From positions 1 through 64,000 of the forward strand of contig JAJZBI010000004.1 of NCBI GenBank assembly GCA_021798985.1: DNA of 64,000 nt, in the 5' to 3' direction. The DNA comes from Actinomycetes bacterium (GTDB lineage Bacteria; Actinomycetota; Acidimicrobiia; Acidimicrobiales; Bog-793). Every line of letters starts with the position of its first letter. Positions within the stretch are counted from its first letter, which is position 1. The notes under the pieces are model-generated. The model made no database searches. It had not been told where the DNA came from and was given only the letters and a program-made list of their open reading frames with translations. The position numbers and the translations under genes are program-made. Below, one piece after another: positions 40,256-52,989 of the stretch.

Positions 40256-41491
40256 TCAGATCAGCTTCAAGATCAGCTGTGGCGCCTGCTGGGCTTGGGC
40301 GAGCATCGAGGTGCCCGTCTGCATCAGGATCTGGTCGGTGGAGAACGTGGTCATCTCCTGGGCCATGTTCACATCGACCAGCTGGCTGTGCGCCGCCGTG
40401 AGGTTCTGCTGGCCAACGGTCAGGTTCGCGGCGATCGCCTGCAGCTCGTTCTGCACCGCACCGACATTCGCCTCGATGGAGTCGACCATGCTGATGGCGT
40501 TCTGCACGGCGGAGATCGCCTGCTGAGCAGAGGTGCTGCTGCCGACGCCGACACTGAGGTCCAGCGACGAAATCGGCTGCGTTGTACCAGTGCCGGGGGT
40601 ACCGGAGACAGCACCAAACCAGTTACCGTTACTACTGCCGTACTGCTCGCTAACGCTGATCCCTGCGCTCCCGGCGGTGGAGGAGTACAGGGCGAGAGCG
40701 CCCTGCGTGGCGCCATTTCCGCCACTGGCCGTACTACCGGTGCCGAACGTGGCGGCGACGCCGATCGCGCTCAGCTGCTGATTGACCGCGTTGGTGAGTT
40801 GCGACTCCGTATACGTGCCTGCCGAAAGCGAAACCGTCACGGCCATGTTGCCGTTCGTCACTTGGAACGCTTCGCCACCGCTGCCAACGGTCACAGTGCT
40901 GGCCCCCGAGGTGGTGATGGCAGCGGTAGTTGCGACCGAGCTCACAGCGGTGGTCACGTTGTTGCCCACGCCGAGGCTCGTTGCGTCAGCGCTCGCGATC
41001 GAGAGCGTGATCTGCTGGGTGGAGACATCGAACGCGCCGACCTGAAGCGTCTGCTGCGTGAACGTCCCGTCGAGCAGGTTCGTCGTCCCGTAGCTGGTCG
41101 TCGACGCGATCTGGTTGATGTCGTTCTGGAGCGCGCTGAACTCCTGCTGGTTCGCTTGCAACGACGTCGGGTCCTGTGTTGCGCCGTTCGCCGAGGAGAG
41201 CGCCAGCTGGTTCATCGTCTGGAGGATGCTCGAGATCTGGTTCAACGCACCCGATGCGGTCTGCACCAGGCTCACACCATCCTGGGCGTTCGAGATCGCG
41301 ACCTGGTAGCCATTCGCCTGGGACTGCAGCGCTTGGCTCTGCACGTACGCAGCGGGCCCATCGGCGGCCGTCTGGATCGACAGGCCCGTGGAGAGCTCCG
41401 TGATCGCCTTCGTCATCTGGGCGTCGGTGGAGTTCAGGGCGTTGTTCGCCGCAATCGCGGAGAGGTTCGTGTCCACGACGAGAGAAGACAT
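40256..41491 (-). CDS. fliC: Flagellin
   Basis: A 411-aa filament subunit. The N-terminal D0/D1 part (about 1-150) has NLSAIAANNALNSTDAQMTK and the GLSIQTAADGPA phrase, a variant of GLRINSAADDAA. The C-terminal D1/D0 (about 315-411) has NLTAAHSQLVDVNMAQEMTT and ends QAQQAPQLILKLI. The middle is a Ser/Thr/Val-rich surface domain with many potential O-glycosylation sites, and its DNA is less GC-biased. GAGGAAACGG precedes the ATG. A sigma-28 promoter, a leader hairpin and GGA motifs lie upstream. Divergent glycosyltransferases suggest it is glycosylated. Confidence 0.96.
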   Translation of the reverse strand: MSSLVVDTNLSAIAANNALNSTDAQMTKAITELSTGLSIQTAADGPAAYVQSQALQSQANGYQVAISNAQDGVSLVQTASGALNQISSILQTMNQLALSSANGATQDPTSLQANQQEFSALQNDINQIASTTSYGTTNLLDGTFTQQTLQVGAFDVSTQQITLSIASADATSLGVGNNVTTAVSSVATTAAITTSGASTVTVGSGGEAFQVTNGNMAVTVSLSAGTYTESQLTNAVNQQLSAIGVAATFGTGSTASGGNGATQGALALYSSTAGSAGISVSEQYGSSNGNWFGAVSGTPGTGTTQPISSLDLSVGVGSSTSAQQAISAVQNAISMVDSIEANVGAVQNELQAIAANLTVGQQNLTAAHSQLVDVNMAQEMTTFSTDQILMQTGTSMLAQAQQAPQLILKLI

Positions 41492-41542
41492 CCGTTTCCT
41501 CGCTTTCGTGATGCCGGCCCGCTTCCGTGCGGACCGCTACGG

Positions 41543-41790: not shown

Positions 41791-44700
41791 ATGGTCAATG
41801 CATTCCGGCGAACGCCCATCACGATCGCCGTGACGGTCAGCGACCTTCGTCAACAGCGCAAGCAGGCGCTCCGAGCGCTCGCTCCGCAGCTTAGAACGGG
41901 CGATAGCCTCGTCTTTCTCGGGCCCGGTAGCACCTCTACGCAACTGGGTGCATGGCGCGTCTCGCGCCCCACAGGTGCGATCGAGCGACCGAGCATGCTC
42001 CCCAAGCCCGCCGAGCTCGTCCTTATCTTCGACGCGCGCCTCGCGCCCAGCGACGACCTGATCACCGTGCTCGTCGAGGGGATCGCCGATCGCAGCGTCG
42101 GCGCGGTTGGGAGCATGAGCAACTGCGAGACCGACGATCCCGCGGTCGCGGCCCCCTATGACCCCGGCGATCTCGCCGCCAAGCGGGCGTTCCTTCGCGA
42201 GATCGGGGCGGAATACCCACATCGCTACCGCCCGGCACAGACACTCACGGCACCCAGCATCCTGATTCGTCGCCATGGCGAGCTCGCCGAAACCCCACTC
42301 GACCAACTGGCCACCCCGCATGGCCTACAGAGCGCCCTCGAATACCTCCAACAACGCGGGGAAGGCCTCCTCGTCGCAGAGCACGCCTACGTCGACTGCC
42401 CCCGAGCGCTGCTCCGACGCAGCGCTCCCCTCGTCTCGGCCTGCCTGATCGTGAAAGACGAGGCACACCAGCTGGAGGATTGCCTGCGAGCCGCCTCTCT
42501 ACTTGCTGACGAGATCGTCGTCTATGACACCGGCTCCACCGACGACACGATCGCCGTCGCAAGGCAGCTCGGCGCGCGGGTGATCGCGGGCCACTGGGAC
42601 GACGACTTCAGCCATGCGCGCAACGACGCCCTCGCGCACTGCCATGGGGAGTGGATCCTCTGGGTCGATGCTGACGAACAGCTGCAGTGCGACGAACCCG
42701 CCAAGCTGCTCGAATTCCTCGCCAGCAGCCCCGGCGACGTCGACGCCTATTTGGTGTCGATCGACAATTTGCAGGGCACCGACGCCAGCACGGTATTTAC
42801 CCACCCGGCGGCTCGCCTCTTTCGTCGGGAGCGCGCCATGTGGGATGGGCGAATCCACGAGCAAGTCGTTCGGCGCAAGGACAAGGGCCCCGTTCGCCTC
42901 CAACACCAGGCACTGGCGCGCATCGTGCACCGCGGCTATCTCCAACAAGCCATGCGCGCGCGCAACAAATCTGAGCGCAACCTTCGCGTCGCCTTCGGAG
43001 ATCTCTCGGGCGGATCAGCGCTCGACAAGGCAACACGCACTCTCTCGCTCGCGCGGTCCTACATGCTTGCTGGGCGTTACGAGGAAGGTCGCGAGCTCTG
43101 TAGCCGCGCGGTCGAGCTCGCCACTCTCCCGTCCACCTTACGTCTCGCGCTGCGGACCCTCGGTGACGCGCTCCTCGTCTTGCGGCGCTACGACGAAGCG
43201 CTCGACGTCGCGCAGCAACTCAAGCAGCAGGCCACGCGTCCCACGTACGCGTTCATCATCGAGGGCAAGGCGCGACTCGGCAAGAACGAACCCGAGTTGG
43301 CGCTCGCTGCGTTCGAACACGTCGGCGTCGGCCACGACGACGATGGATTTGAGCATCGCCCGTCGATGGTCGCCGTCCAACGTGCAGAAGCGCTCACCGC
43401 GCTGAACCGCCACGGCGAAGCCTGTGATGTCCTTCTCGACCTGCTTCGTGCGAGCGACGGCCTGGACGACCACATCGGCGTGCTCTTGAACCTGCTGCAC
43501 ATGGCGGGGCGTGAGCCGACCGAAGCGTACGATGCCATTCGGCCTGAGCGTCGGCTTGCGTTTCTTCCTCAGATCGTCCAGCTCGAGCGGTCCTTCGCGG
43601 ACACCATTCTTGAATCGTGGCATCACCGTGACCCATCGTCGCTCCCGCTCCTCGCCGCGGCGGCCGAGGTTTCCTCCGACCTACCAGTCGAACGGAAACT
43701 CATCTGGTCGGCGCGCCTGCGCGCTGCCGGGATCTGGGCGGCGTGCCCGCTCGTGACCGCGACTGCCGACGGCCGGATCCCGGCCGCCACCCGCGCCTTG
43801 GCGGGCGCTGTGGCCTTCCAGAGCTTCGCCGACGAACGCGCCCGCGCTGGCTTCCGCGCGGCGGTGCGGGCCGCCGGGACCGACGAGCGGGCCGTGCTCG
43901 CCCAGCAGATCCCGGCGATCAGCCCCACCCTTGCCGCAGAGCTCGAGGCGCTCCCCGGCTTGGTCCGGCCGGATCACGCTGTGGACACCCTGCCAGAGGT
44001 TTCGCGATCAGTCCTGGTCATCTCGACGCGGGTCAGCGATCTTGCCGCGATGTCGTTCGCGCAACGCGCCGCATCTTTCGGCCACCAGGTCACGCTCCTG
44101 CAACCAGAGCCCTGCAATGCCACGCGCGAGGCGCTCCAGGGGCACGGGATCACGGTTCGCGGATGGACGGGCGCACCGGAGCCGGGCAGCCCGGCAGCAC
44201 GGCGCGCGGCCGCAGTCATGTACGCGGCACGCCGGTACGAGGTTGTCGCACTGAGCGCCAGCCTCGCCGATACGGTGCACCAATTCCGCGAACTGTTCCC
44301 TATCAGCAGCGTGCTCGTCATCGACGAAACCTCTGAAGCGGACCATCTCGAAATTTCGAGCCTCTTTGGCATCAGTGGGACCGTTCCGAGCGCGCTGCGC
44401 AACGGAATCTGCATCGTGGCGGATTGGGAGGACGGCACGGACTCCACGCACCACGTCACGGCGACGCGGATCCTTGGCCTCCTCGACGAGCTCGTCAACG
44501 AACCGCTCACCTTCCTGAACGCCGTGCAAAGTCCCACGGCCCGTCAATGCTTTCCGGCCGCGCTCTTCCCAGCGGCCCTAGCCAATCCGCTCCCCTGGAT
44601 CTCGACCGCCCGCGTCCTACTTGTCAGTGGGGTGCCCGACGCGCCCATCTGGAAGCGCCTCGGCGAGGTCACTGCAACCCCGGTCCTGATCGACACTCCA

Positions 44701-46017
44701 GGCCGCGACGTCCAAGACAGCGCACGCCAGCTTCGCTCTGCATACTCCAACGAGGAAGTCGAAGGCCGCCATCGAAGTGGGATAGGCCCGGCTACCGCTG
44801 GGCGCGTCGATCCCGTCGCGAGCATTCCCCGCAGATCGCCAACTCGACCGAAGCGGTCGAGCGGGGACGCGCCGGTCCATCTGAAGGGTTCCGTCTACGC
44901 TCTCGACAGCCTGGCCCAGGTCAATCGCGAGCTGGCGAGGCACCTCCACGTTCACCTTGGCGACCGGCTCCAGATCACGACCCCCGAAGCGCCAGCTAGC
45001 GGTCTCGCTCGTGCGGCGCAGCTGTCCGCGATGCAGGTCAACCACGGCGGGCGCGGGCCGACCGGCGGGAGCGTCGAAGTCCGCCATCAGTGGCCGCCGG
45101 ATTTCTCGCCTTCATCAGCGGATCATCTCGTGGTCATTCAGCCGTGGGAGTTCGGCGTCTTCCCAGCGGAGTGGATCGGTCCGATTCGCGACCTCGTCGA
45201 CGAGCTCTGGGTACCGACCACCTGGGTGCGCGACTGTGCGATGCAAAGCGGAATTGATCGGGACAAGGTATTCGTGGTGCCCAACGGCGTCGACACCGAG
45301 CGATTCACCCCCAACGGTCCCAAGTACCCGCTCCGCACTCAGAAATCGACGCGGTTCTTGTACGTCGGTGGCTGCATCGAACGAAAGGGCGTCGATGTGC
45401 TGCTTGAGACCTACCTCACCACATTTAGCCGCAATGACGACGTCTGCCTGGTCATCAAGCCCTACGGCTCCAACACGATCTATCGCGGTCTCAACCTCGA
45501 AGACGACATCCGCCGTGCCGCGGCAAGCAATGGTCCGGAGATTGAGCTGATCGATTCAGACCTCGATCTCGACGAGATTTCCGCGCTCTACCGTTCCTGC
45601 ACCGCACTTGTACATCCCTACCGAGGTGAGGGCTTCGGGCTCCCCATCGCGGAAGCCATGGCAAGCGGCTTGCCGGTCGTGACGACCAACGGAGGAGCAT
45701 GCCTGGACTACTGCGACGAATCGGTCGGTTGGCTCATCGACAGCCGGGTCGTTCCCACCGTGGTGCCACCCCTCACGCCGACCGGTCGCGGGTGGTGGTG
45801 GCTTGAGCCAACAAGGGAGCACCTCGCCGCAGCAATGCAGCAGGTGGCCGCCGATCACACGACCGCCCATGCACGCGGCACGCAGGGACGCGTCCGCATT
45901 CTCGAATCCTTCACCTGGCGACATGCCGCTGAGATCGCCGCGACGCGCCTCGATCTCCTCATTGGAACTCGACGCATCGGACCTCTGGAGTTCGCTGCGA
46001 AGGGCGCCCCAGCATGA
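41791..46017 (+). CDS. Multi-domain glycosyltransferase, probable flagellin glycosylation
   Basis: A 1408-aa protein. Residues 1-205 look like a degenerate GT2-like fold (VLIFDARLAPSDDL). Residues about 213-360 are an intact GT2 domain with ACLIVKDEAHQLEDCLRAAS, DTGSTDDT and the metal motif WVDADEQ. Residues about 400-620 are TPR-like helices. Residues about 735-930 form a Rossmann-like region (VLVISTRVSDLAAMSFAQRA). Residues about 1040-1395 form a GT4 GT-B domain with YVGGCIERKGVDVLLETY and EGFGLPIAEAMASGLPVV. GGAGG precedes the ATG. It is divergent from fliC and followed by a second GT4 gene. The TPR resembles substrate-reading modules of O-GlcNAc-type transferases. Flagellin as target is inferred from location. 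Confidence 0.85.
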   Translation: MVNAFRRTPITIAVTVSDLRQQRKQALRALAPQLRTGDSLVFLGPGSTSTQLGAWRVSRPTGAIERPSMLPKPAELVLIFDARLAPSDDLITVLVEGIADRSVGAVGSMSNCETDDPAVAAPYDPGDLAAKRAFLREIGAEYPHRYRPAQTLTAPSILIRRHGELAETPLDQLATPHGLQSALEYLQQRGEGLLVAEHAYVDCPRALLRRSAPLVSACLIVKDEAHQLEDCLRAASLLADEIVVYDTGSTDDTIAVARQLGARVIAGHWDDDFSHARNDALAHCHGEWILWVDADEQLQCDEPAKLLEFLASSPGDVDAYLVSIDNLQGTDASTVFTHPAARLFRRERAMWDGRIHEQVVRRKDKGPVRLQHQALARIVHRGYLQQAMRARNKSERNLRVAFGDLSGGSALDKATRTLSLARSYMLAGRYEEGRELCSRAVELATLPSTLRLALRTLGDALLVLRRYDEALDVAQQLKQQATRPTYAFIIEGKARLGKNEPELALAAFEHVGVGHDDDGFEHRPSMVAVQRAEALTALNRHGEACDVLLDLLRASDGLDDHIGVLLNLLHMAGREPTEAYDAIRPERRLAFLPQIVQLERSFADTILESWHHRDPSSLPLLAAAAEVSSDLPVERKLIWSARLRAAGIWAACPLVTATADGRIPAATRALAGAVAFQSFADERARAGFRAAVRAAGTDERAVLAQQIPAISPTLAAELEALPGLVRPDHAVDTLPEVSRSVLVISTRVSDLAAMSFAQRAASFGHQVTLLQPEPCNATREALQGHGITVRGWTGAPEPGSPAARRAAAVMYAARRYEVVALSASLADTVHQFRELFPISSVLVIDETSEADHLEISSLFGISGTVPSALRNGICIVADWEDGTDSTHHVTATRILGLLDELVNEPLTFLNAVQSPTARQCFPAALFPAALANPLPWISTARVLLVSGVPDAPIWKRLGEVTATPVLIDTPGRDVQDSARQLRSAYSNEEVEGRHRSGIGPATAGRVDPVASIPRRSPTRPKRSSGDAPVHLKGSVYALDSLAQVNRELARHLHVHLGDRLQITTPEAPASGLARAAQLSAMQVNHGGRGPTGGSVEVRHQWPPDFSPSSADHLVVIQPWEFGVFPAEWIGPIRDLVDELWVPTTWVRDCAMQSGIDRDKVFVVPNGVDTERFTPNGPKYPLRTQKSTRFLYVGGCIERKGVDVLLETYLTTFSRNDDVCLVIKPYGSNTIYRGLNLEDDIRRAAASNGPEIELIDSDLDLDEISALYRSCTALVHPYRGEGFGLPIAEAMASGLPVVTTNGGACLDYCDESVGWLIDSRVVPTVVPPLTPTGRGWWWLEPTREHLAAAMQQVAADHTTAHARGTQGRVRILESFTWRHAAEIAATRLDLLIGTRRIGPLEFAAKGAPA

Positions 46018-46057
46018 GCCGCGCTCTGGATATCAGGCTTGGCGGATTGGTCCGGCG

Positions 46058-47254
46058 ATGACCGCGCGATACGCCGCGCCGGTCTGGGTCGGACCACTGC
46101 TCTCCCCGACCGGCTTTGGCGACGAGGGCCGGGGCTTCGTCTCATGGCTCCGCCAGACCGGGGTGCCGATTGCCGCCCAGTCGCTGGACAGCGACGCGAC
46201 CGGGTTGCTCTCTCGCCTCGTCCGCGATGATCCACAGCTCGTCAGGAACCTCCACGCTGCCCTGACGGCACCGCGTGAGCTCTCGTCGGCGACCGCGATC
46301 GTCCACGTGCCGGCCGCCTGGGGGGTCACTGCCCCGTCCGGCGTCGCGTATCGGGTTTGCCGGACGATGTGGGAGACAGACAGCCTCAACGTGTACCAGG
46401 TGAACTGCCTCAACACCTTCGACGAGATCTGGGTGCCCAGTTCGCATAACGCTCGTTCCTTCGTCGATGCGGGCGTGCGAGTTCCCGTCATGATCGTCCC
46501 CGGTGGCGTCGATAGTGCCGTGTTCCGGCCCGACGCGGACCCGCTGTACCTTCCCCAGGCGCGAGGCACGCGGTTCCTCTCGGTCTTTGAGTGGAGTCAT
46601 CGCAAGGGCCCGGACGTCCTCTTGCGAGCATGGGCTGATGCGTTCACGTCAGCCGACGACGTCACCTTGGTACTGCGCTGCTATCCCCAGAACCGTTTCG
46701 GCGATGCGCGCGACCTCACGTCCGAGGTCGATGCATTGATCGCAGAGACGCTCGCAGCGTATGGCCGTCGCCGAGAAGATGGCGCGCCAATCGTCGTGAT
46801 CGGCCGCCATCTCGCGCCGGGGGAGCTGCCATCCCTCTACCGGGCGGTCGATGCCTATGTGTCCCCCGCCCGCGGGGAGGGCTGGGGGCGCCCGCTCATG
46901 GAGGCCATGGCGACGGGCTTGCCCGTGATCGGCACGGGCTGGGGACCGCCGCTGGATTTCATGAACCCGAACAACTCCCTCCTCATCGAAGTGGATCGGC
47001 TCTCGGTGGTCGACGGTCAGATGGAGGTTGCGGCACACCAGGGACAGCGATGGGCAGAGCCCAGCACCGACCACCTCGTCGAACTGCTCCGCCATGTCCA
47101 CACAAACCCTGGTGCCGCTCGCGCCGTCGGGCAGCGAGCCCGGCGCGACATTGAGCAGCACTGGCACTGGCGGCGAATCGCCGGCATCGCCGCCGAGCGG
47201 CTCGCCCACATCGCCACCGAACTGCGGCACGGCGCCGGGGTCGTCACCTGGTAG
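46058..47254 (+). CDS. GT4-family glycosyltransferase
   Basis: A 398-aa GT-B glycosyltransferase related to the C-terminal domain of the preceding protein. It has FDEIWVPSSHNARSFVDAGV, VPGGVDSAVFRP, FEWSHRKGPDVLLRAWADAF and ARGEGWGRPLMEAMATGLPV, the phosphate- and sugar-binding parts of the nucleotide-sugar domain. ATG 46058 starts 41 bases after the previous stop; an upstream start would overlap out of frame and has no support. It probably extends the glycan started by the large enzyme on flagellin. The donor sugar cannot be read. Confidence 0.88.
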   Translation: MTARYAAPVWVGPLLSPTGFGDEGRGFVSWLRQTGVPIAAQSLDSDATGLLSRLVRDDPQLVRNLHAALTAPRELSSATAIVHVPAAWGVTAPSGVAYRVCRTMWETDSLNVYQVNCLNTFDEIWVPSSHNARSFVDAGVRVPVMIVPGGVDSAVFRPDADPLYLPQARGTRFLSVFEWSHRKGPDVLLRAWADAFTSADDVTLVLRCYPQNRFGDARDLTSEVDALIAETLAAYGRRREDGAPIVVIGRHLAPGELPSLYRAVDAYVSPARGEGWGRPLMEAMATGLPVIGTGWGPPLDFMNPNNSLLIEVDRLSVVDGQMEVAAHQGQRWAEPSTDHLVELLRHVHTNPGAARAVGQRARRDIEQHWHWRRIAGIAAERLAHIATELRHGAGVVTW

Positions 47255-47418: not shown

Positions 47419-49494
47419 GTGAGCAACCGGCAGCGACTCGGCATCTTCGGGGTGCCCACCGCGGTCATCTTGATCGTGGTGATGCTCGTCGTCCCGCTCC
47501 CCTCCTTCATCATCGACCTGTTCATCACGGTCAACATCTCCGCGGCGATCATCATCTTGTTGACGGTGATGCACGTGAAGAAGGCGAAGGACTTCTCCGC
47601 CTTCCCCTCGGTGCTGTTGGTGGCGACGATGTTCCGCCTCGGCCTCAATGTCAGCGTGACCCGCCTAGTCCTGCTGCACGGCTACGCGGGCGCCGTTGTC
47701 CAGAGCTTCGGCAGCTTCGTCATCGGCGGCCAGGTCGTTGTCGGGATCATCGTCTTTTTGATCCTGATCATCATCCAGTTCGTCGTCGTCACCAACGGCG
47801 CCGGGCGCGTCTCTGAGGTCTCGGCGCGCTTTTCCCTCGATGCCATGGGCCCCAAGCTCGTCGCCATCGACGGCGAGCTGAACAGCGGGATCATCGACGA
47901 GAAAGAGGCACGCCGGCGCCGCCGGGAGATCGATGAGACCTCCGCCTTCTACGGCAACATGGACGGCGCCTCCAAGTTCGTCCGGGGCGACGCCATCGCC
48001 GCGCTCATCATCACCTTCGTCAACCTGCTCGGCGGCCTCGGCATCGGCGTGATCCAGCACCACCTGTCGGTCAGCGCCGCGATCCACACCTACTCGATCC
48101 TCTCGGTCGGCGACGGCCTGGTCTCCCAGATCCCGGCCCTGTTGCTGTCGATCTCGACCGGCCTCATCGTCACCCGCGGCACGAGCGAGGACGACACCGA
48201 CTTCGGCAACGACGTCGTCCGCCAGTTCCGCGCCCAGCCCCGGGCGATGCTCGTCGCCGGCGCGTCGATGGCCGTGCTGGCGGTGGTCCCCGGCCTTCCG
48301 CACCTCCCCTTCGTGATCATCGGCGTCGCGCTGATCGTCCTCGGCATGCGCCTCAAGCGGGCGGCGGAGGAGATCGCCGCCACCGAGGCCGAGGTGCCAA
48401 CGCCGGTCGACCCCGCGGCGAACGACACCCCCCAGGCGCTCGCCACCCAGATGCGCGCCGAGCGCCTCGAGCTCGAGCTCGCCGCGGACCTGACCCCGCT
48501 CGCGGACTCCGCCAACGGCGGCGACCTGCTCGAGCGCGTCCGCGGCCTGCGCCGCAAGATCGCCCTCGAGCGCGGCTTTGCCATCCCGACCGTGCGCACG
48601 AGGGACAACATCAACCTGCCGGCGGGCACCTACGCCATCCGCGTCAACGGTGTCGAGGTGTCGCGCGGCGAGGCCCATCCGGGCCGGATGCTCGCCATCG
48701 GCCCGGGCATCGAGCTCCTGCCCGGCACCCCGACCGTCGAGCCGGCCTTCGGCCTCCCCGCCAAGTGGATCCCCGCCGAGGCACGCGAGCACGCCGTCGC
48801 CGTGGCAGGGATTACCCCGATCGATCCCTCCTCGGCGATCATCACCCATCTCGCCGAGGTCGCCACCCAGAACGCCGGCGCGCTGCTGTCGACCCAGCAG
48901 GTCCAGATCCTGCTCGATGCCACCAAGGCGACCGATCCCGCGCTCGTCGAGGAGATGAAGCTCGCCCAGCTCTCCCTCGTCGAGCTGCACAAGGTGCTCA
49001 CCTCGCTCGTCGAAGAGGGCGTGCCGATCACCGACTTCGTGCGCATCCTCGAGGCGGTCACCGCCCGGGCCCGCCAGCCCAACCGGACCCCAGAGGCCCT
49101 CGTCGAGGCCGCCCGCGCCGCGCTCGGCCCGATGATCACCGCCCAGCACGCCCGTGACGGCAAGCTGGCGGTCATCACGATCGACGCCGGCCTCGAGCAG
49201 GTGCTGCTGGCCGGGCTGAAACAGACCGACACCGGCAGCCTGATCGCGACCGAGCCGCAGGTCACCGAGCACCTCGTCAGCGAGGTGCGCAACTGCTATG
49301 ACGCCGGCACGCGCCAGATGCGCGAGCCGGTCTTGATCACGGCCTCCGCGCTCCGACCAGGGCTCGCCCGGCTCTTTGCCGCGGCCCTCCCCCGGCTGGC
49401 GGTGATGTCGGTCAACGAGATCGGCCGGCAGGTGCAACTCGAGAGAATTGGGGTGGTGGGCAATGTCAACGCCGTCGCAGCCATTGGTCTTTGA
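47419..49494 (+). CDS. flhA: Flagellar export gate protein FlhA
   Basis: A 691-aa export gate component. The N-terminal half has about eight membrane helices with LPSFIIDLFITVNISAAIII, TMFRLGLNVSVTRLVLLHGY and the conserved FHIPEP-type loop (AIDGELNSGIIDEKEARRRR and GAMDGASKF-like NMDGASKFVRGDA). The C-terminal cytoplasmic domain (about 350-691) forms the nonameric ring that docks chaperone-substrate complexes. The GTG start has no ribosome binding site, consistent with a leaderless message. It overlaps the FlhF-like gene by 32 bases. Confidence 0.96.
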   Translation: MSNRQRLGIFGVPTAVILIVVMLVVPLPSFIIDLFITVNISAAIIILLTVMHVKKAKDFSAFPSVLLVATMFRLGLNVSVTRLVLLHGYAGAVVQSFGSFVIGGQVVVGIIVFLILIIIQFVVVTNGAGRVSEVSARFSLDAMGPKLVAIDGELNSGIIDEKEARRRRREIDETSAFYGNMDGASKFVRGDAIAALIITFVNLLGGLGIGVIQHHLSVSAAIHTYSILSVGDGLVSQIPALLLSISTGLIVTRGTSEDDTDFGNDVVRQFRAQPRAMLVAGASMAVLAVVPGLPHLPFVIIGVALIVLGMRLKRAAEEIAATEAEVPTPVDPAANDTPQALATQMRAERLELELAADLTPLADSANGGDLLERVRGLRRKIALERGFAIPTVRTRDNINLPAGTYAIRVNGVEVSRGEAHPGRMLAIGPGIELLPGTPTVEPAFGLPAKWIPAEAREHAVAVAGITPIDPSSAIITHLAEVATQNAGALLSTQQVQILLDATKATDPALVEEMKLAQLSLVELHKVLTSLVEEGVPITDFVRILEAVTARARQPNRTPEALVEAARAALGPMITAQHARDGKLAVITIDAGLEQVLLAGLKQTDTGSLIATEPQVTEHLVSEVRNCYDAGTRQMREPVLITASALRPGLARLFAAALPRLAVMSVNEIGRQVQLERIGVVGNVNAVAAIGL

Positions 49495-50824
49495 GGGCCC
49501 CGATCCCAAGCGGCTCTTGCTCGAGGTGTTCGCCGCGCATGGGCCGGGCGCCAAGATCTCCGAGCCGGTCGCCGTGCGCGAGGGGGGCGTCCTCGGCTTC
49601 TTCGCGAAGATGCACTACCGCGTGGAAGTGACCCCACCCGCGCCCGGCGGCTCGCCGGCCACCCCGGCCCCCACACCCGCTCCCCGATCCGTCGCTGCGG
49701 CCGTCGCCGCTGCGGATGCGACCGCAGCGCCCGGCGCCACGAGCGCGACCGGCGCGGCGCTCGCCGGACTCATCGCGCAGACCGAGGACGAGGTCGACCT
49801 CAACACGTCGCGCCAGGAGAGCTTCGAGGAGATCCTCGACAAGGTGGCGAGCTCGCTCGGCGAGGAGCCGGGTGCCGAGCTGGCGCTCCTCGGCGCCCCC
49901 GCGATCGCGGCCACGCCGAGCATGCCCACCGTCGCGCCGGTCACCCGCCCCGGTCGGGTGCTGCGCAACGACGAGCTCGCGAACGCCGTGTTCAGCGAGC
50001 TCCCGCTCGCCCCACTCGCACCGGGCGACGCGTTGGTCGCGCCCCGCCGACCGCCCATGTCACCAGCGACCAGTGCTCCTGCGGCACCGGTGCACCACAA
50101 GACCATGGAGGAGGAGCTCGCCGGCCTCGCCCTCGAGCCCGCCCGCCGCGGCGAGCTCGGTGGCGTCGTCATGCCGGCTGGCGTCTCGACCGATCTCGCG
50201 CTCGTCGGCTTTCCCCTCCGCCTCCTTGGGTCCCGTGCTGGTGAGCTCTCCTCGCTCTCCGAAGCGTTCGGGCTGGCACCGGTCGCCCGCGCCCTGCCGA
50301 AGACGGCGGGCAGCCTGATCGCCGTGGTCGGCTCGGGCGGCCGGGCGCTGTCGGCCGCCAAGGCGATCGCCGCCGAGATCGGCATGGAGCACGCCGCCAT
50401 CCCCCGCGCGCTGGCCCGACGCGGCCGCAGCGCCGCAGAGGATCACCTCGTCGTGCACGATGCCACCGAGGCAGCCGACCTCTCCCCCGGCTGGCGGCGC
50501 GGCCGCGCCGTGGTCGTCACGGTCTCGGTGCCCGCGACCGCCGACGCCGGGGAGTGGACCCGTGCCGTGCTCGGCGGGCTGGCGCCGTCGATGACCCTGC
50601 TCGTGGCGAGCGCGGCGGCCAAGACCGAGGACGTCCAGGCGATGGTCCAAACCATCGGCGGCGTCGACGGGCTCGTGCTCGAGGACTGCGGCGAGACCCT
50701 CACGCCCGCCAGTGTGCTCTCGGCCGGCCTACCGATCGCCCGCCTCGACGGTCAGCCCGCGGGCGCCTCGGCCTGGGTCGCCGTCGCCGAGCGGGCCCTC
50801 GAACGCCGTTCCCGAGGCTGGTGA
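49463..50824 (+). CDS. FlhF-like protein without GTPase motifs
   Basis: A 453-aa protein overlapping flhA by 32 bases, where flhF normally lies. Residues about 8-55 match the FlhF N-terminal domain (DPKRLLLEVFAAHGPGAKIS, then VREGGVLGFFAKMHYRVEV). A long Ala/Pro/Thr-rich linker follows. In the C-terminal part the place of the SRP-type P-loop (GPTGVGKTT) holds LIAVVGSGGRALSAAKAIAA, lacking Lys-Thr-Thr. The later fold (ADAGEWTRAVLGGLAPSMTL; GGVDGLVLEDCGETLTPASV) still resembles an NG domain. I infer a GTPase-dead FlhF relative, perhaps a scaffold for flagellar placement. No FlhG follows. Confidence 0.72.
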   Translation: MSTPSQPLVFEGPDPKRLLLEVFAAHGPGAKISEPVAVREGGVLGFFAKMHYRVEVTPPAPGGSPATPAPTPAPRSVAAAVAAADATAAPGATSATGAALAGLIAQTEDEVDLNTSRQESFEEILDKVASSLGEEPGAELALLGAPAIAATPSMPTVAPVTRPGRVLRNDELANAVFSELPLAPLAPGDALVAPRRPPMSPATSAPAAPVHHKTMEEELAGLALEPARRGELGGVVMPAGVSTDLALVGFPLRLLGSRAGELSSLSEAFGLAPVARALPKTAGSLIAVVGSGGRALSAAKAIAAEIGMEHAAIPRALARRGRSAAEDHLVVHDATEAADLSPGWRRGRAVVVTVSVPATADAGEWTRAVLGGLAPSMTLLVASAAAKTEDVQAMVQTIGGVDGLVLEDCGETLTPASVLSAGLPIARLDGQPAGASAWVAVAERALERRSRGW

Positions 50825-51168: not shown

Positions 51169-51212
51169 CATCGCGCCGGTCAGAGACCGGCGCGAGCTCG
51201 AGGGAGGCGGCC

Positions 51213-51764
51213 ATGCTGGTACTGCGGCGGCGCCCGCTCGAGTCGATCCTCTTCGACGGTGGGCTGAAGGTCACCCTCGCCGGGGTCGTCGACCAGCGCG
51301 CCTGGCTCTCCCTGAGCGCCCCTTGCCTGAGCGCCGAAGTCGTCCTCTCCCCCGTGCAGAGCACCGCTTCGTCGGTCTGCCTGGCGCTGCGCGGCCCGCG
51401 CGCCCTCACCGAGGAGCAGGACGGCCTGCATCTCGAGCTCGGCGGGAGCGCGGACGCCGTCGTCTTGGTGAACCGATCGATCGGCGACGTCCTGCACACG
51501 AGCGGCCTCACGCTGTCCTTGAAGGCCATCGAGGCGGGGCGCGCGGTGCTCCGCCTCGAGCTCGCCTGCATCACCGGGGAGATCGGGGTCTCGATCTTCT
51601 CGGTCACCGGCTCGGAGGCCAAGATCGGCATCGAGGCGCCCCGCGAGGTGCGCGTGCTGCGCGACGAGGTCTGGCGCGAGCTCGAGGCGGCCAACGCCGG
51701 CGCCGGCGAGGCCTGGAGCGAGTCGGATCTCGCCGCGCTGAGCGCGACGCGCCGCCGCCCCTGA
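51213..51764 (+). CDS. Enlarged CsrA-like RNA-binding protein
   Basis: A 183-aa protein built from CsrA-like units (normal CsrA is about 60-75 aa). Residues 1-45 (MLVLRRRPLESILFDGGLKV, then TLAG) align with a whole CsrA monomer and keep Leu4 and Arg6 of strand 1. Residues 83-117 (VVLVNRSIGDVLHTSGLTLS) look like a second, weaker unit. Residues 118-160 (SIFSVTGSEAKIGIEAPREV, then RVLRDEVWREL) match the C-terminal two thirds, with Arg150 in the place of the RNA-binding Arg44. CsrA makes its RNA site from strand 1 of one subunit and strand 5 of the other; here both could come from one chain. AGGGAGG precedes the ATG. FliW, the CsrA antagonist, is encoded nearby. Confidence 0.78.
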   Translation: MLVLRRRPLESILFDGGLKVTLAGVVDQRAWLSLSAPCLSAEVVLSPVQSTASSVCLALRGPRALTEEQDGLHLELGGSADAVVLVNRSIGDVLHTSGLTLSLKAIEAGRAVLRLELACITGEIGVSIFSVTGSEAKIGIEAPREVRVLRDEVWRELEAANAGAGEAWSESDLAALSATRRRP

Positions 51765-51800: not shown

Positions 51801-52436
51801 ATGGCGCCTCCGGCCAAATCGCGTCCCGATCTGATCACCGGCGAGGACGGTCGCGCCCGTTGCGCCTGGGGCGCCCCAAACGCCGCCTCCCGCGCCTACC
51901 ACGACGAGGAGTGGGGCCACCCAAGCACGGACGCCCGGTATGTCCTCGAGATCGTCTGCCTCGAGGGCTTCCAGGCCGGGCTGTCGTGGCAGACCATCTT
52001 GAACAAGCGCGCCGCGTTCCGGCGCGCCTTTTGTGACTTCGAGGCGCGCCGCCTCGCCCGCTTTGGCGAGAGCGACGTGGCACGCCTGCTCGACGATGCG
52101 GGCATCGTGCGCCATCGCGCCAAGATCGAGGCAACGATCGCCAACGCCAAGGCCGCGCTCGCCCTCGAGCGCGCCGGAAACTCGCTCGCCGCGCTCATCT
52201 GGCGCTTCGCACCGAGCCCGAGCAATGCCCCAAAGCGCCTCGCGGACCTTCCCGCCGCGACGCCCGCGTCGCGGGCATGCTCAGCGGCGCTGCGGGCGGC
52301 GGGCTTCTGTTTCGTCGGCCCCACGACGCTCTACGCCGCGATGCAGGCGCTCGGTCTCATCAACGACCACCTGGCAGGCTGTTCCGCCCGCGCCGGCGCC
52401 GAGGCCGCCCGGGCGGTTTTCCGGCCGCCGCACTGA
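51801..52436 (+). CDS. tag: DNA-3-methyladenine glycosylase I
   Basis: A 211-aa base-excision repair enzyme. The start RCAWGAPNAASRAYHDEEWG, the phrase FQAGLSWQTILNKRAAFRRA with the catalytic Glu in LEGFQAG, and the C-terminal CFVGPTTLYAAMQALGLIND with HLAGC are diagnostic of Tag. Zinc ligands appear as the early Cys and His and the late His and Cys. It is unrelated to the flagellar genes around it and has no clear ribosome binding site; it may read through from the CsrA-like gene 36 bases upstream. Confidence 0.95.
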   Translation: MAPPAKSRPDLITGEDGRARCAWGAPNAASRAYHDEEWGHPSTDARYVLEIVCLEGFQAGLSWQTILNKRAAFRRAFCDFEARRLARFGESDVARLLDDAGIVRHRAKIEATIANAKAALALERAGNSLAALIWRFAPSPSNAPKRLADLPAATPASRACSAALRAAGFCFVGPTTLYAAMQALGLINDHLAGCSARAGAEAARAVFRPPH

Positions 52437-52485: not shown

Positions 52486-52989
52486 TTACGCTCGGGTGCG
52501 AGCGCTTCTTGCGTCGACGGGCACGGCGGCGGCGAAGCCGGCGTCGTGCAGCACGATCTGGGTCGCGAGCTGGCTGCGGCGGTTGCAGATGAGCGGGCCC
52601 ATCAGGTTCACCGTCGGGACGGCCCCCGGGCGGCGGGTGACGAGCACAAAGACGTCCACGTCGTCGGGCTCGGTGAGGCCGAGCGCGGCGGCGTCGCCCT
52701 CCTCGATGGCAAAGACGTAGTCGGAGAACAACAGCCCCGGCCGCACCACGATGAACTCGAGCCCGGGCTCGTCGATGGAGGAGAACGCCAGGAAAGGCTC
52801 GTAGGCCTCGCCCATGGAGTGCAACTTGAAGGTGAGCGAGTTCGGAAAGCCGATGAGCGGCCGAACGAGCGCGATGAACTGCTCGCCCGAGGGCGCGAGC
52901 GCACCGTCGGGCTGGGCGGTGCGGTCCTCGATCGTCAAGGTCTCTGTCATCGTTCTTGGTGCTCCCAACGAGCCGGGTTCGGCCCTCAT
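52486..52989 (-). CDS. fliW: Flagellar assembly factor FliW
   Basis: A 167-aa (or 154-aa from ATG 52950) protein of the FliW family. Recognised parts are the central GFPNSLTFKL, PFLAFSSIDEPGLEFIVVRP and the late TVNLMGPLICNRRSQLATQI with NLxAPLxIN-like sequence. ATG 52989 overlaps the flgL stop as ATGA. FliW binds both flagellin and CsrA: when flagellin accumulates, CsrA is released and stops flagellin translation. The presence of an unusual CsrA-like protein 0.7 kb away supports such a circuit here. It is the last gene of this minus-strand operon. Confidence 0.92.
   Translation of the reverse strand: MRAEPGSLGAPRTMTETLTIEDRTAQPDGALAPSGEQFIALVRPLIGFPNSLTFKLHSMGEAYEPFLAFSSIDEPGLEFIVVRPGLLFSDYVFAIEEGDAAALGLTEPDDVDVFVLVTRRPGAVPTVNLMGPLICNRRSQLATQIVLHDAGFAAAVPVDARSARTRA

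Follow-up and report, generated by a model that had tools for sequence, protein, structure and literature searches.

Locus and genomic context

The whole stretch of DNA analysed here, 64 kb long and called the window from here on, carries a csrA gene whose 183-amino-acid product departs from the short one-unit form of the family (about 65-75 aa, five strands and a helix) by having two repeats and 15 predicted strands. Its neighbourhood is flagellar, with, in order, flhA, an FlhF-like open reading frame (ORF), the long csrA, a methyladenine glycosylase gene and fliW, and the minus-strand genes past csrA are fliW, a flgL-like gene, flgK and flgN.

51213..51764, plus strand: long csrA, 183 aa, two expanded CsrA repeats in a single chain
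51202..51207, plus strand: Shine-Dalgarno sequence of the long csrA, GGGAGG, read from the sequence
51801..52436, plus strand: methyladenine glycosylase gene, a bystander between csrA and fliW (Pfam Adenine_glyco, 5.2e-63)
52486..52989, minus strand: fliW, convergent with csrA (Pfam FliW, 1.4e-26)
40256..41491, minus strand: flagellin gene, the presumed mRNA target (Pfam Flagellin_N and Flagellin_C)
47419-49494: flhA

Translation of the long csrA starts at the ATG at 51213, with GGGAGG located 5 bases 5' of it, and GGAGG-like sites are found at the equivalent position in most of the long-CsrA homologues. An earlier note on this DNA had described a single-chain CsrA-like protein of at least two units, encoded beside FliW. 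The ORF is indeed real, its product matches the Pfam CsrA profile (PF02599) in two stretches (1.4e-15, 57.4 bits, for a gathering score of 27), and the proximity of fliW is borne out, in a flagellar context. When searched in pieces, the protein matches CsrA at both ends, with 21.6 bits for residues 1-37 alone and 39.4 bits for the C-terminal part, as the same note had anticipated. With 52.5 bits, it misses the cut-off of 73 bits of the NCBIfam single-unit CsrA equivalog. Judged by these profiles, the long CsrA is a CsrA by family descent, and equivalence to the single-unit CsrA is not claimed. A search of the whole genome returned this gene as its sole csrA.

The ORF located between flhA and csrA (49448-50824, plus strand) has an FlhF-like N-terminus by eye, with VVGSGG at the place of the P-loop, and no GTPase match in Pfam; it is possibly an FlhF that has lost its GTPase. 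Glycosyltransferase genes adjoin the flagellin gene (41791-47254, plus strand) and probably serve the glycosylation of flagellin. An Rfam search of the 64-kb window gave zero matches.

Two expanded repeats in one chain

The protein can be divided into two repeats, R1 and R2, followed by a C-terminal tail.

51213..51449, plus strand: repeat R1, residues 1-79, with an intact RNA-binding strand 1 and a degenerate strand 5, without C-terminal helix
51459..51707, plus strand: repeat R2, residues ~83-165, with a degenerate strand 1, an extra hairpin, and intact strands 3-5 and helix
51213..51233, plus strand: strand 1 of R1, MLVLRRR, half of the putative surviving RNA site; L2, L4, R6 and R7 invariant
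51648..51710, plus strand: strand 5 and helix of R2, residues 146-166; V148, R150, E152 and N161 invariant
51714..51761, plus strand: C-terminal tail, residues 168-183, with the WSxxDLxxL motif and a predicted second helix at 170-180

Profile-profile comparison of R1 (1-79) with R2 (80-165) gives a score of 66.9 over 70 columns, against a maximum of 16.6 in 100 column shuffles and 9.3 for the reversed profile, and the alignment extends over 70-78 columns with one gap. Since this score is far above those of the shuffles, the long CsrA is a tandem repeat. Compared with ordinary CsrA, residues 1-37 of R1 match strands 1-4, and residues 118-165 of R2 match strands 3-5 plus the helix. Residues 82-117 match strands 1-4 weakly, with a score of 21.6 versus a shuffle maximum of 15.1, in agreement with the weaker unit placed by the earlier note at residues 83-117, and residues 38-79 of R1 match marginally (20.9 versus 20.2). 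The layout drawn in that note, with one unit, a second one, and two thirds of a third, is right in that there is more than one CsrA unit and wrong in its count, since residues 38-79 are the counterpart of 118-160. Such a three-unit reading is therefore rejected, as the homology of R1 and R2 over 70-78 columns gives two repeats. Each repeat, of about 80 aa, resembles a CsrA unit enlarged by one beta-hairpin.

Distribution of the long form

Full-length long CsrA proteins are encoded in 11 of the 35 genomes of the family, that of the window included. They comprise 183-204 aa, range from 88 to 26% in identity, and all begin at an equivalent M-L-V-L, the most divergent of them being L013 from genome G006, with 26% identity. 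An orthologue of 190 aa (L038) from another metagenome-assembled genome (MAG) brings the long-CsrA sequences to 12. The scan that found it, with two peptide patterns and one genome per species (84,980 genomes), gave no long CsrA outside this group. Likewise, among 296 genomes of the class, two CsrA stretches in one long frame occur in members of the window's family only, and 395 class and 396 phylum genomes gave no further full-length match among the eight candidates scored per genome. The named long-CsrA records are acid-mine-type MAGs labelled Acidimicrobiaceae or Actinomycetes, and all the data on the long CsrA come from MAGs of one family. The FliW tree and the flagellin tree each part the long-CsrA from the short-CsrA members of the family at one branch (100/100), which is consistent with one origin of the long form.

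Another genome of the class (G191) has eleven extra partial CsrA matches, on contigs C5, C8, C16, C23, C35, C41, C47, C50, C57, C61 and C88. Ten of them cover profile positions 15-49, in short frames dispersed over the contigs, as if a CsrA fragment were riding on a repeated element.

One putative RNA-binding site and one putative FliW site

In CsrA, RNA is bound in a pocket to which one subunit contributes strand 1 and its partner strand 5, L4 and R44 being critical (PMC7652899). The conservation of these positions was mapped over 11 aligned homologues, with identities down to 26%. The site combining strand 1 of R1 and strand 5 of R2 (site A) is invariant in 11/11 at L2, L4, R6, R7, E10, P143, V148, R150 and E152, where R150 of R2 occupies the position of R44 of ordinary CsrA, an assignment of the earlier note that the alignment confirms. 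The reciprocal combination, strand 1 of R2 and strand 5 of R1 (site B), presents an Arg equivalent to R6 in just five of the 11 sequences, Q, E, G, P, S, D or A and never Arg (0/11) in the place of R44, and no conserved residue at the V42 position; its structural positions G91 and P62 are kept. Thus, the set of RNA contacts of CsrA (L4, R6; V42, R44) is present once per chain and absent at the second potential site, a pattern that strongly supports what the earlier note had put forward, namely that a single site survives, formed by strand 1 of the first unit together with strand 5 of the last.

Regarding the second partner, CsrA of Bacillus no longer binds FliW when its Asn55 is changed, and in Campylobacter the binding becomes about ten times weaker (PMC6529632, PMC7829508). 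The counterpart of this residue is N161, located in the helix of R2 and invariant in 11/11, and R1 is devoid of such a helix. The long CsrA therefore presents the traits of FliW-regulated CsrA proteins, that is, an Asn55 equivalent in a helix and an extended C-terminus with WSxxDLxxL. In the comparison with the congener whose protein is 88% identical, the dN/dS of the long csrA is about 0.20 overall. Altogether, this supports a functional protein in which each chain has a single RNA site of the canonical kind and a single site for FliW.

Partners and flagellin leader

CsrA and flagellin co-occur in the identical 18 of the 35 family genomes, and FliW is present in 17 of those 18. A fliW gene accompanies the long CsrA in 10 of the 11 family genomes, and also in G845. 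In the remaining one, G018, with long CsrA L012 and a flagellin, no FliW was detected; this MAG is 95% complete, and a gap could explain it. The flagellin leader of G018 (L100) has the loop AAGAC, the GGA being lost, and this genome is a possible case of natural loss of the FliW branch.

41515..41536, minus strand: flagellin leader hairpin CGGUCCGC-ACGGAA-GCGGGCCG, an ANGGAN hexaloop on an 8-bp stem, presumed CsrA site
41484..41501, minus strand: hairpin GAGGA-AACGGAUG-UCUUC, the Shine-Dalgarno sequence paired with flagellin codons 2-3

Defined as an ANGGAN hexaloop on a stem of at least 3 bp, the first hairpin is found 37-39 nt 5' of the start codon in eight of the nine long-CsrA flagellin leaders read, the exception being that of G018, and in 1.7-3.8% of the dinucleotide-shuffled leaders of those eight genomes. 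Positions 2 and 6 of the hexaloop are variable, and the A, GG and A are fixed. In the window, its stem is the longest among all the ANGGAN hexaloops of the 64 kb. Stem positions pair in 92% of cases versus 31-39% in slid controls, and covariation amounts to just two double changes, with no excess over shuffles. The second hairpin exposes ANGGA over the flagellin start codon, and is a possible second CsrA site. ANGGAUG overlies the start codon in 9/9 of the long-CsrA leaders, where this second ANGGA is 33-35 nt from the first. The TCT TCT at flagellin codons 2-3 (41477-41491, minus strand), which pairs with the Shine-Dalgarno sequence, is kept in most of them; TCT is a rare serine codon, used for 4 of the 169 serines encoded by seven genes in the vicinity of csrA. 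No covariation was seen in the Shine-Dalgarno hairpin. Because the relatives, and with them their leaders, go back to one origin, this conservation represents non-independent evidence.

In the short-CsrA members of the family, the flagellin leader has two hairpins with an ANGGAN hexaloop, of which the second is on the Shine-Dalgarno sequence, and the long-CsrA genomes have one. A correspondence of one protein site with one leader site was considered and rejected, using as a control 16 leaders from 16 further genomes of the order: G078 and G076, with a short CsrA and a flagellin of the MSSLV type, share the long-type arrangement. Since this arrangement also occurs with short CsrA, it follows the flagellin lineage.

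Predicted fold, proposed mechanism and alternatives

AlphaFold models of the protein of the window and of a 47%-identical orthologue share the same plan, in which 15 strands precede two helices (pLDDT 89.5 and 86.5; pTM 0.80 and 0.78, respectively). As to the CsrA beta-barrel topology on which the earlier note had made its reading depend, both models are confident all-beta folds with a C-terminal helix, but neither has a significant match in the PDB by Foldseek (E ≥ 0.15). Only one CsrA chain aligned, weakly (5dmb_D, Z 3.3 over 72 residues), and most of the rows given by VIA-align 2 show a resemblance to beta-barrels (Z < 7). Because the models match no solved structure significantly, it is by inference that strand 1 of R1 is placed next to strand 5 of R2 within a CsrA barrel, and the long CsrA would fold as an intramolecular pseudo-dimer. 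The chances look about even that this is a naturally monomeric CsrA whose two expanded units join into one wide barrel, with about 14 strands rather than 10, and that this barrel has just one site for RNA and one for FliW. If true, flagellin translation would be switched by a protein that does not bridge two RNA sites and whose stoichiometry is set at 1:1:1.

We consider it likely that the product of this gene is an asymmetric CsrA, made naturally as a single chain, and that it regulates flagellin. According to this proposal, an ordinary CsrA would have gained an extra beta-hairpin and then undergone a tandem duplication inside one ORF, after which the halves would have specialised, the first keeping the RNA-binding strand 1, and the second keeping strand 5 and the helix where FliW docks. 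The closed chain would be a pseudo-dimer in which a single ANGGAN-binding site lies beside a single FliW site. Site A would clamp the leader hairpin and repress the translation of flagellin, until FliW, freed from flagellin by the export of the latter, docks on the single helix and the mRNA is released. In this way the partner switch of Bacillus would work in set proportions, a single RNA and a single FliW for each CsrA chain. The tandem repeat, the one-sided conservation, the single N55 equivalent, the co-occurrence with flagellin and FliW and the leader hairpin are seen in the sequences, and from them we infer that the long CsrA binds RNA and FliW and represses flagellin at a 1:1 ratio.

The long chain might, on the other hand, homodimerise by arm swapping, giving a particle with two sites of the canonical kind (and possibly two remnants) that bridges the two ANGGA motifs of the leader. 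Both ordinary CsrA and RsmN are obligate dimers (PMC3791407), and the spacing of 33-35 nt falls inside the bridging range of 10-63 nt quoted in PMC7652899. However, one chain already holds both half-sites and all the strands of two units, and its predictions as a monomer reach a pLDDT of 89.5 and a pTM of 0.80; these two arguments leave room for a dimer, which we regard as unlikely. We give an equally low probability to site B being altered rather than dead, and having as its target either a second, distinct RNA element (for example the octaloop at the start codon) or some other ligand. The conserved G91 and P62, the purifying selection on the middle region (dN/dS 0.28 between the congeners) and the conserved ANGGAUG hairpin overlapping the flagellin start codon would fit with such a role, but the R6, V42 and R44 positions have no invariant basic or polar residues, and the start-codon hairpin also accompanies the short CsrA of G078 and G076, so it did not arise for the long CsrA.

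That this is an ordinary divergent CsrA with a decorative insertion, working as that of Bacillus with no special mechanism, agrees with its genomic place, partner and target class, all of which are as for ordinary CsrA, yet it is made very improbable by the length, the tandem repeat and the one-sided decay, fixed in 11 genomes down to 26% identity. Least probable of all is a decayed CsrA acting only as a FliW sink or anti-regulator, since, even though its RNA binding is a prediction and no second copy in the genome enforces the function of this sole CsrA, the RNA contacts of site A are all invariant, with zero amino-acid changes in its parts between the congeners, and the flagellin leader hairpin is retained.

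Two questions about CsrA, taken to be an obligate symmetric dimer, are to what extent repression needs both RNA sites, by bridging, and whether a single FliW per dimer is the functional ratio. With a natural protein that seemingly keeps one site of each kind, both become directly testable without engineered heterodimers. If the single-chain asymmetric CsrA is true, it would also illustrate clearly how, after a duplication, the two halves of one active site can share out the work. In a single family of actinobacteria living in acid, what is normally a symmetric pair of small proteins with two identical RNA grips apparently became one long protein with a single RNA grip and a single FliW helix.

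Comparison with known systems

The CsrA of Bacillus and Geobacillus is a homodimer of ~74 aa per chain, which has a pair of equivalent RNA sites and can dock FliW at two places. The long CsrA shares with it (complex 5dmb) the strand-1/strand-5 RNA contacts, the N55 FliW contact, the C-terminal extension, the ANGGA hairpins in the flagellin leader and the presence of FliW in the csrA gene cluster. It differs in its 183-aa chain with two repeats, extra hairpins and one conserved site of each kind. The working ratio measured in Bacillus is one FliW per CsrA dimer (PMC6529632). Laboratory heterodimers with one R44A subunit have one functional RNA site (Mercante et al., as summarised in PMC7652899), and those with one N55D subunit have one functional FliW site (PMC6529632). 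Those proteins are artificial and consist of two chains, whereas the asymmetry of the long CsrA looks natural and is encoded in one gene.

In RsmN, or RsmF, from Pseudomonas aeruginosa, the CsrA unit is interrupted between strands 2 and 3 by an insertion, which alters the fold of the chain (PMC3791407). The long CsrA is also built of a CsrA unit with an insertion, and phmmer aligns its residues 97-153 with RsmF. Contrary to RsmN, which has an inserted helix, no C-terminal helix and one unit of ~71 aa forming a symmetric dimer, the long CsrA has a predicted beta-hairpin as its insertion and a C-terminal helix at 151-166, and falls outside the RsmN/RsmF type. No tandem or single-chain CsrA was found described in the open-access literature.

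In the set compared, the other families of the order have an ordinary CsrA of 76-118 aa with a single CsrA domain. These short proteins differ from the long CsrA in length and domain number, and resemble it in the locus convergent with fliW, the flagellin type and the leader hairpins. Since the long gene and ordinary csrA occupy the same locus, the former is an orthologue of the latter. The idea that csrA left the fliW operon on lengthening was rejected, as the convergent order of fliW and csrA is also found with short CsrA in G066, G072, G076, G078, G083 and G093. In G006, csrA lies on the same strand as fliW and downstream of it, an arrangement that differs from that of the other long-CsrA genomes.
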